Shown here: positions 3,272 through 6,676 of the stretch, piece after piece
Layout of the letters: each line of letters begins with the position of its first letter
Numbering within the stretch: position 1 is the stretch's first letter
Origin: Nitrososphaerota archaeon
Lineage (GTDB): Archaea > Thermoproteota > Nitrososphaeria > Nitrososphaerales > JACPRH01
NCBI GenBank assembly: GCA_029460375.1
Contig: JARPAQ010000134.1
Location: forward strand, 1 to 7,181
Length of the DNA stretch: 7,181 nt
Reading direction: 5' to 3'
Translations under genes and position numbers: made by a program
The notes under the pieces: generated by a model
The model's input: only the letters and a program-made list of their open reading frames with translations
What the model was told of the DNA's origin: nothing
Databases searched by the model: none

Positions 3272-3808
3272 TTAAAGGTTTTCAAGTCTTGCCCTAGACA
3301 CCTTGTAGTATATCACTTCGCCTCTGCTCTCTATGACCGCAACTATGGGGTCTTTCCCCATCCTCGCTATCTGATCTACAGATACGCTCATATCCTTGAC
3401 AGGAATCTCCCTACCTTGATCCAGCCCGAATACAACAGACTTGGCTGGCTTTACTCCGAACTCTCCTCTGCTGTAGACTCTGAAGTCTACGCCGAATCCG
3501 AAACCCTCCTTCGCGACATATCCCCTGCTCCTCAAATCACGGTATATCAGAAACTTTGTCCAAGCATCACGGTCCCTCTTAAGGGCAAACTCAACCATGT
3601 TATTTAGCTGTATCCGAGATTTGCCTCTTTTGACCTTCAGTTTATCTGCATAGATGAGGAACAGAGCCTCGTAATCCTTCAGGTACAGCCTCTTCCCCTT
3701 CATATCCCCGTATCCTCTCTCCTCAAGCTGCCCCTTGGCTTCGGGGCCGATTACATAGACACCGTCATCGGAAAGCCGCCCAGATACTATTGATATCTCT
3801 TCAGACAA
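3272..3808 (-). CDS. tRNA-intron endonuclease subunit, histidine-less (probable structural subunit)
   Basis: This 178-residue protein has the fold signature of archaeal EndA, the enzyme that cuts bulge-helix-bulge introns. The N-terminal domain covers roughly residues 15-75, with LYLKDYEALFLIYADKLKV. The C-terminal nuclease-type domain contains FLIYRDLRSRGYVAKEGF (86-103) and FGVDFRVYSRG (105-115). The catalytic triad in active EndA subunits is Tyr-His-Lys. Tyr112 and possibly Lys152 remain, but the usual histidine position (HAxYLV in active enzymes) reads PAKSVV at 121-126, and the protein has no histidine anywhere. It therefore most likely serves as the structural half of a heterotetramer with a catalytic partner encoded elsewhere, as known in Crenarchaeota. 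The TTG start is supported by GGAGGGG seven bases upstream. It leads the operon with the prenyltransferase and rfcL. Confidence 0.88.
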   Translation of the reverse strand: MSEEISIVSGRLSDDGVYVIGPEAKGQLEERGYGDMKGKRLYLKDYEALFLIYADKLKVKRGKSRIQLNNMVEFALKRDRDAWTKFLIYRDLRSRGYVAKEGFGFGVDFRVYSRGEFGVKPAKSVVFGLDQGREIPVKDMSVSVDQIARMGKDPIVAVIESRGEVIYYKVSRARLENL

Positions 3809-5465: not shown

Positions 5466-6543
5466 TTGAAAGGTATCGTGGATTTCTTTACTGAAAGGAC
5501 TGTAAGATGGGATGACGGAACAGTCGTTCTGATAGATCAGCGTAGACTCCCTAATAGATTCACCTACATCAGATGCACCGACCACACACAGATAGCCAAG
5601 ACGATAAGAGACATGAATGTAAGAGGAGCCCCCGCCATAGGAGTAGCTGCCGCTATGGGTCTAGCCCTCACCGCGCACAACAGCAAGGCTGAAACGAAGC
5701 GGGAACTGCTCGTCGAACTTGAAGAGGCCAGCAGAGAACTTGTGGAAACTAGACCGACGGCAGCCAACTTAGCTTGGGCAATAAAGAGAATCTTCCGTAA
5801 GGCCTCTGAAGCTGAAGGAGACATAGGCCACCTGAAGCAAACTATAATCGAAGAAGCCGAGCGAATGGCCGATGAAGACGTAGAGATTAACAGAGAAATC
5901 GGGAGGAACGGATCACCCTTACTTAAAGACGGGGACACAGTGCTCACCCACTGTAAATGGCTTTAAAGGCCAGCAGAATGCGGGTGCACTTGCGACTGTC
6001 GGGTACGGAACGGCGCTGGGTGTGGTTAGGACCGCCTCTGAAGAAGGTAAGTGTATACAGGTATTTGCCACTGAGACTCGTCCAGCCCTTCAAGGCGCTA
6101 GGTTGACGACCTACGAGTTGAGCCATGATGGTTTCTACGTCACCTTGATAGCTGACAGCATGGTGGGGTACGTTATGAACCGAGGGATGATTGACACGGT
6201 TCTAGTCGGAGCCGATAGGATAACTCGAACCGGCCATATATTCAACAAGATAGGAACATACCAAATAGCTATTCTAGCTAAGAAGCACGGTGTCCCGTTC
6301 TACTGTGCTGCTCCAGCGTCGACTTTCGACTTGGAGAATGATTGGCGTGACGTTGTGATAGAGGAGCGGAGCATAGATGAGATGATCAAGATCGGCGGTA
6401 AACGGATGGCTGCCAAGAAGGTCAAGATATTTAACCCAGTCTTCGACATAACACCTCCAGAGCTGGTGACCGGCATAATAACTGAGAGAGGTCTTCTAAA
6501 GCCAGACTACGGGAAGACTATACCTAAACTGATGAAGCCTTAA
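5466..6543 (+). CDS. mtnA: S-methyl-5-thioribose-1-phosphate isomerase-type protein (aIF2B-like family), interrupted by a 22-base BHB intron
   Basis: MtnA converts methylthioribose-1-phosphate to methylthioribulose-1-phosphate in methionine salvage. The coding sequence is joined from 5466-5956 and 5979-6543, giving 351 residues, the usual family length. Motifs of the spliced product are VRGAPAIGVAAAMGLAL (52-68), ETRPTAANLAWAI (94-106), VLTHCNAGALATVGYGTALG (159-178) with the catalytic cysteine C163, ETRPALQGARLTTYEL (196-211), and VGADRITRTG (240-249) with the catalytic aspartate D243. Without removal of the 22 bases, translation stops three codons after C163 and yields an inactive 166-residue fragment. 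Both halves are well conserved with no other damage, which argues against a dead gene. The TTG start fits a leaderless message; GTG at 5478 is an alternative. The RGAPAIG motif favours MtnA over ribose-1,5-bisphosphate isomerase, but the family is broad. It is a single gene followed by tRNA-Arg 37 bases later. Confidence 0.9.
5957..5978 (+). other. Probable 22-base bulge-helix-bulge (BHB) pre-mRNA intron in mtnA
   Basis: Exactly 22 bases interrupt the codons for Cys163-Asn164. Their removal restores TGT-AAT-GCG and the frame. The sequence alone allows the intron to start at 5955, 5956 or 5957, but only 5957-5978 fits the cleavage rule of the tRNA splicing endonuclease. The fold is: 5' bulge AA|A (5955-5957), central helix CTGT (5951-5954) with GCAG (5973-5976), 3' bulge AA|T (5977-5979). 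Inside is a 6-bp stem TGGCTT/AGGCCA (5958-5963 with 5967-5972, one G-U pair) closed by the triloop TAA. Outside, CACCC (5945-5949) pairs with GGGTG (5982-5986) after a small internal loop. The triloop is also the in-frame stop codon. Splicing has not been shown here; it is inferred from frame, family motif and fold together. Confidence 0.88.
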
Positions 6544-6580: not shown

Positions 6581-6676
6581 GGGCCCGTAGCCCAGTCAGG
6601 ATAAGGCGTTGAGTCAAAGATACGCGCAAGCCTTCGGAGCCAAAGATCCGGGGTTCGAATCCCTGCGGGCCCGCCA
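6581..6676 (+). tRNA. tRNA-Arg(TCG) with an 18-base intron and encoded CCA
   Basis: The cloverleaf is clear. The acceptor is GGGCCCG (6581-6587) with CGGGCCC (6666-6672), then discriminator G and genomic CCA (6674-6676). T8-A9 and the D arm GCCC...AGGC follow, with one C-A mismatch. The T arm is CGGGG-TTCGAAT-CCCTG (6649-6665). The anticodon arm is complete only after 6612-6629 is removed: stem TTG+GC with GCCAA and loop CTTCGGA, anticodon TCG at 6634-6636, which reads CGA arginine codons. The mature tRNA has 78 bases including CCA. Unspliced, the anticodon stem has only three pairs, so an intron rather than a defective tRNA is the natural reading. It lies 37 bases after mtnA on the same strand. 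Confidence 0.95.
6612..6629 (+). other. tRNA-Arg intron between positions 29 and 30, BHB type
   Basis: The intron sits in the anticodon stem, not at the common 37/38 site. The boundaries are unique because only TTG|...|GC rebuilds the stem. The BHB is: 5' bulge TG|A (6610-6612), central helix GCGT (6606-6609) with GCGC (6624-6627, one U-G pair), 3' bulge AA|G (6628-6630). The inner helix is short (GT/AC, 6613-6614 with 6622-6623) and the outer one poor, so this is a relaxed BHB. Introns at 29/30 are known from Crenarchaeota with heteromeric endonucleases. Confidence 0.88.

Follow-up and report, generated by a model that had tools for sequence, protein, structure and literature searches.

How does an archaeon obtain a methionine-recycling enzyme from a gene whose reading frame stops inside the active-site motif? 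This question is raised by mtnA, the gene for methylthioribose-1-phosphate isomerase, in a 7,181-nt stretch of DNA (hereafter the window) from a Nitrososphaerales-like archaeal MAG. The MAG amounts to 1.05 Mb in 192 contigs, of which the window is contig 98, and is 88.3% complete; a protein search of its contigs found a single mtnA locus. Besides mtnA, the window carries moaB, a tRNA and genes for the replication factor C large subunit, a prenyltransferase, an EndA subunit and DUF1059 and DUF3303 proteins. The tRNA lies directly behind mtnA (6581-6676, plus strand) and was called tRNA-Leu by ARAGORN. It reads as tRNA-Arg(tcg), however, after any of several deletions of ∼13-24 nt upstream of its anticodon loop; a tRNA-Arg gene carrying a short non-canonical intron is the likely identity. 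At another locus, L006, mtnA is likewise followed by a tRNA-like sequence.

Read without splicing, exon 1 of mtnA (5466-5956, plus strand; TTG 5466 is the first start of the ORF and the true start may differ) ends in LTHCKWL followed by an in-frame TAA at 5964-5966. Excision of 22 bases (5957-5978) joins this exon to exon 2 (5979-6543, plus strand). The joined frame gives LTHCNAGALATVGYG, in which the LTHCNAGALAT motif is back and no internal stop occurs, in agreement with a previous reading of this DNA made from its sequence only. That sequence-only reading had the frame break directly after the catalytic Cys codon; the break is indeed at the motif, but the insert splits the following Asn codon (AA|T) instead of lying between two codons. 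The Cys is presumably catalytic, an assignment that we take from work on bacterial MtnA. The exon-joined product aligned over almost its whole length with MtnA proteins of known structure (1t9k, 1t5o and 2yrf among 42 sequences), and the residues of 1t9k at the insert site are lthcnagalatv. Named Bathyarchaeota hits had at first pointed to Bathyarchaeia, an assignment that was dropped because the best named matches of exon 2, at 86% and 81%, belong to Nitrososphaerales archaeon MAGs, and because of the protein tree described below.

Inserts at the same site in relatives

We searched 60 relatives with the exon-joined protein, collecting full-length, split and stop-containing matches, and read the loci with a purpose-written spliced aligner. 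Together with the genome searches described below, this placed inserts of 19-43 nt at the identical mtnA residue in 40 genomes of the phylum, the window's included, of which 23 belong to the window's order and 17 lie outside its class; other relatives showed mtnA without interruption. The aligner found inserts at the site in 16/51, 6/21, 17/20 and 0/33 loci, plus the window; the NAG letters were not displayed for 4 loci of the 0/33 set, and some loci, such as L067, begin at a contig edge beyond the insert site. Within the order, the insert was present in 7/7 genomes of family f13, in all five matching genomes of f14 (10 genomes) and in six of the seven matching genomes of f8 (9 genomes), where G403 was uninterrupted. 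In the window's own family, f1, it occurred in G000 (the window's genome), G001 and G003, while G002 and G004 gave only weak matches, and further insert genomes were G007 (f4) and G020 (f17). Every one of the 40 inserts contains an in-frame stop or has a length not divisible by 3, and an in-frame stop falls inside the insert or in the next 28 nt in 37 of them.

Of 400 genomes of the order screened with an RNA model, exactly those 23 reached 57.2-76.9 bits, and no match elsewhere exceeded 26.7 bits. Among the weaker matches listed, 33 of 37 were 34 nt long, the size of both flanks without an insert, and the 15 that we compared with mtnA coordinates all lay within mtnA. Over 398 genomes of the phylum, the model retrieved the window and 17 genomes outside its class (44.5-63.4 bits), and in all 17 the spliced alignment confirmed the insert at the site. 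Since mtnA-like matches, possibly including paralogues, were present in 377 of the 398 genomes (E ≤ 1e-50), the intron is a minority state in the phylum. A second search of 21 genomes, mostly those with a partial or no mtnA match (intronless G403 included), allowed six loci to be read and revealed no BHB insert at the site in them, G695, G642 and G509 being only partly covered.

Other interruptions reported by the aligner were left uncounted: inserts near the C-terminal end were taken as forced end matches, and those of 12, 15 or 27 nt in exon 1 as in-frame insertions. At locus L093 (G356), the insert reported around query residue 133 of exon 1 is an ordinary tandem duplication, a 27-nt in-frame near-copy of the adjoining sequence. 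Small breaks away from the motif occur in mtnA of G527 and G752. Among public proteins, the 133-aa fragment P0263, named Candidatus Jordarchaeales, is identical to MtnA of G545, possibly owing to a binning or naming error.

The relatives also settled the junction. The window alone allows three equivalent ones, with the last exon-1 and first exon-2 bases at 5954/5977, 5955/5978 or 5956/5979. The last of these, which was also the one proposed earlier, corresponds to the canonical BHB cut after the second bulge nucleotide, and it was the sole junction tried that worked in all insert-bearing genomes, giving a mature CNAG in 40/40 sequences; cuts shifted by -2, -1 and +1 restored CNAG in 17, 17 and 6 of 40, respectively.

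A predicted relaxed bulge-helix-bulge

Folding and covariation predict a 4-bp central helix in the window, formed by the exon strand CUGU (5951-5954), which covers most of the Cys codon, and the intron strand GCAG (5973-5976), with one U-G pair. On either side of it lie the 5′ bulge AAA (5955-5957), with a predicted cut at 5956/5957, and the 3′ bulge AAU (5977-5979), with a predicted cut at 5978/5979, both cuts being placed by comparison over the relatives. The intron would be closed by an inner hairpin (5958-5972; all elements on the plus strand) of 6 bp, in which 5958-5963 pair with 5967-5972, one pair being U-G, around a 3-nt loop. The shape first described for this DNA, two 3-nt bulges, a 4-bp helix and a 6-bp inner stem, was thus recovered, but it comes without an outer helix adjoining the bulges, the only outer pairing possible being an offset CACCC/GGGTG. 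A core of 4+4 bp with 3-nt bulges at the junction arose in 186 of 200,000 dinucleotide shuffles, and in 114 of 200,000 trials with random 22-mers at the window junction. The folding energy of the window insert was not significant (z = -1.36; 20 of 200 shuffles folded equally well). Rfam gave no match in the window at gathering thresholds, and 22 nt offer no room for the catalytic core of a group I or group II intron.

Structural conservation was assessed on the 38 distinct sequences among the 40 inserts. The 4-bp central helix is paired in 38/38, with the two 3-nt bulges on opposite strands, as in a BHB. The inner helix, 3-10 bp long, is paired in 96.3% of cells, and all five inner-stem pairs show two-sided changes, as illustrated by the arms TGACC/GGTCA, TAGCC/GGCTA, CAGCT/AGCTG and TGAGT/GCTCA. 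The covariation score was 0.346 versus 0.196 in shuffled alignments, none of 500 reaching the observed value, and fell to 0.024-0.121 when the structure was slid; the two-sided pair count and the pair-type count did not rise above shuffles (224/500 and 88/500). The loop varies freely in sequence and length. On its exon side the bulge reads AA in 40/40, and the intron side is variable. An outer helix contiguous with the bulges has no pairs in 37 of the 40 inserts and a single pair in the remaining 3; the strict hBHBh′ form is therefore absent and the motif is a relaxed BHB. In this respect the mtnA inserts resemble cbf5 introns; passages of PMC2738675 class most of those as unconventional BHBs, for which cleavage by a hetero-oligomeric EndA is expected.

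Splicing enzymes and alternative explanations

The window itself encodes an EndA subunit of the beta, or structural, type (3272-3808, minus strand), which lacks the catalytic His and is a divergent neighbour of mtnA. An EndA domain was found in 20/20 genomes tried, with two matches in 18 of them, and an alpha subunit with catalytic residues in 19. In an alignment of 30 EndA sequences, the catalytic His was present in 19 and missing in 11, the window's gene included; the alpha/beta call uses catalytic triad positions that we take to be those of the family. Given these two types, with and without the His, the relatives probably have an alpha-beta EndA. The MAG that contains the window yielded beta but no catalytic alpha, and G020 yielded alpha but no beta; both absences were taken for assembly gaps. 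The ligase RtcB was detected in 59 of 61 genomes, including the window's own (G000:C62); the two without a match were G031 and G030, the latter an intron-bearing genome that is 91% complete.

We consider it very probable that 5957-5978 is an mRNA intron, with a predicted relaxed BHB fold; EndA would cleave it at both bulges and RtcB would likely seal the ends. The comparative evidence is decisive here, namely the shared site in 40 genomes, the recovery of CNAG in all of them and the two-sided stem changes, and, together with the presence of the machinery genes in relatives, it favours the earlier proposal that mtnA is a spliced protein-coding message. According to sequence and covariation, exon CUGU and intron GCAG would form the central helix while the short inner hairpin closes the intron. 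By the precedent of cbf5, a two-subunit EndA, with a catalytic alpha and a structural beta subunit, would cut after base 2 of each 3-base bulge. In the joined sequence AA meets U to form the Asn codon and LTHCNAGALAT is rebuilt. The unspliced message is predicted to yield half an enzyme, and the joined one should make active MtnA.

A refinement of this splicing reading is that the EndA intron is retained as a switch, so that the level of splicing sets MtnA output and senses EndA/RtcB capacity. The gene neighbourhood is compatible with such a role. EndA beta lies divergently by mtnA, within 1.7 kb, in 12/12 intron genomes with a beta match (the window, with two small genes in between, and G001, G003, G007, G016, G017, G029, G030, G034, G056, G059 and G337) versus 3/7 intronless ones (Fisher P = 0.009, uncorrected for kinship, which confounds the count), and the distance from rtcB to mtnA is at most 5 kb in G007, G016, G029, G038 and G045. 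However, the same neighbourhood exists without the intron in G403, G018 and G013, and the loop varies freely in inserts of 19-43 nt. We regard a switch, which would add to the splicing reading, as improbable.

Alternatively, the message might stay unspliced, with two half-proteins made separately and then assembling. Exon-2-sized proteins (∼173 aa) are indeed frequent in public sets (∼159-206 aa in P0001-P0034, some of them labelled as the complete enzyme), and GTG start codons occur inside exon 2. Yet translation from its first in-frame start, GTG 6022, would lose NAGALATVGYGTALG. Nor would separate halves account for the covarying stems, or for the split Asn codon, whose halves (AA and T/C) are retained in 40/40 while the adjoining insert bases vary. 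We judge this explanation very unlikely; the exon-2-sized proteins look like exon-2 gene calls, which suggests that many more genomes bear the insert.

In a fragmented MAG one may suspect that the break is a mistake of sequencing or assembly, or that this copy is a pseudogene in decay while an intact mtnA sits elsewhere, and the relative G604 has an apparent one-base frameshift near the same motif. Both possibilities, which the sequence-only reading had named as potential refutations, conflict with the data: inserts with covarying stems occupy the site in 40 genomes, no second mtnA locus is present in the window's genome, and both exons are under purifying selection. Over 12 intron-bearing pairs, synonymous codon differences outnumbered nonsynonymous ones by 412 to 290 in exon 1 and by 559 to 155 in exon 2, from which we conclude that both exons are kept as protein; in two of the 12 pairs the exon 1 trend was reversed, nonsynonymous changes outnumbering synonymous ones (G034/G049, 68 vs 48; G059/G052, 17 vs 15). 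Error or decay is thus hardly credible. Finally, ribosome hopping over the insert, a translational bypass as in T4 gene 60, could be imagined from the hairpin and the stop codon within the gap, but bypass requires matching take-off and landing codons and here the landing-side triplet is CAG or CGG against a take-off TGY in 40/40 (0/40 match), and the conservation of the EndA cut position would go unexplained, which leaves it a negligible chance.

Origin of the inserts and known archaeal introns

On a tree of 106 MtnA proteins, 40 with and 66 without the insert, the insert state changes at least 11 times, six of these changes being forced by well-supported branches. Insert-bearing proteins of genomes outside the class do not cluster with those of the order, families f8 and f37 contain both states, and 19 losses would be needed if the insert had arisen once, at the midpoint root. 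Two named Bathyarchaeota MtnA rows fall outside the clade of the window's order. The pattern could reflect an old intron that was then lost in places, transfer, or repeated insertions at the same position. The window insert shares 21 of 22 bases with that of G471 (L181), from outside the class, and differs more from the inserts of its own family. As half of the insert bases are constrained, this likeness may be due to chance.

The mtnA insert has the predicted central helix, bulges and cut positions of archaeal tRNA and rRNA BHB introns and would use the same enzymes. It differs from them in that its host is a message and no outer helix adjoins the bulges. The view that protein-coding cases are rare, with cbf5 the best known, agrees with the passages that we found. 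Those in PMC7714728 (2020) name only one further archaeal BHB intron, in cbf5 mRNA, plus an EndA site in a 5′ UTR; those in PMC4810243 (2016) confine archaeal pre-mRNA introns to cbf5; and passages of PMC12397907 (2025), PMC13149111 (2026) and PMC3655853 (2013) name no other gene. The EndA site concerns the Haloferax HVO_1309 mRNA, which according to the passage in PMC7714728 is an EndA substrate, as proposed here for mtnA, but with the site in the 5′ UTR and not in the coding frame. In the open-licence literature, a body that leaves outside most subscription papers and all preprints, ‘thioribose-1-phosphate isomerase’ and ‘intron’ were not found together. The cbf5 pre-mRNA intron of Crenarchaeota (Sulfolobales, Desulfurococcales) has another host gene, so that the mtnA inserts are not members of its family; they lie at the active-site Cys-Asn codons, in other lineages, measure 19-43 nt and, as introns, are predictions from sequence. 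Thus, the kind of intron is known, while the host gene, the breadth and the position in an active-site motif appear to be new.

A loose scan for other spliced genes over 400 kb of one G017 contig returned 25 candidate rows, including the mtnA intron. Pfam comparison of eight other candidate sites (11 rows) showed that seven of them join halves of different families, such as Nop and fibrillarin, and are therefore ordinary neighbouring genes; at the eighth, the second half matched no Pfam family.

The mtnA inserts probably form a second pre-mRNA intron family in archaea, with a broad and patchy distribution. If true, mRNA splicing in archaea would not be a peculiarity of one gene, and genes of this type would be seen to be broken by gene callers, leaving half-length proteins named as the whole enzyme. 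The 40 natural variants, down to 19 nt, would help to learn which substrates EndA tolerates and by what routes such introns come and go. It is conceivable, if rather unlikely, that the mtnA intron is ancient or repeatedly homing across the phylum, so that one active-site codon would have been spliced since before the classes split and the intron lost many times, and that, with EndA beta encoded divergently beside it, methionine salvage would depend on splicing capacity.
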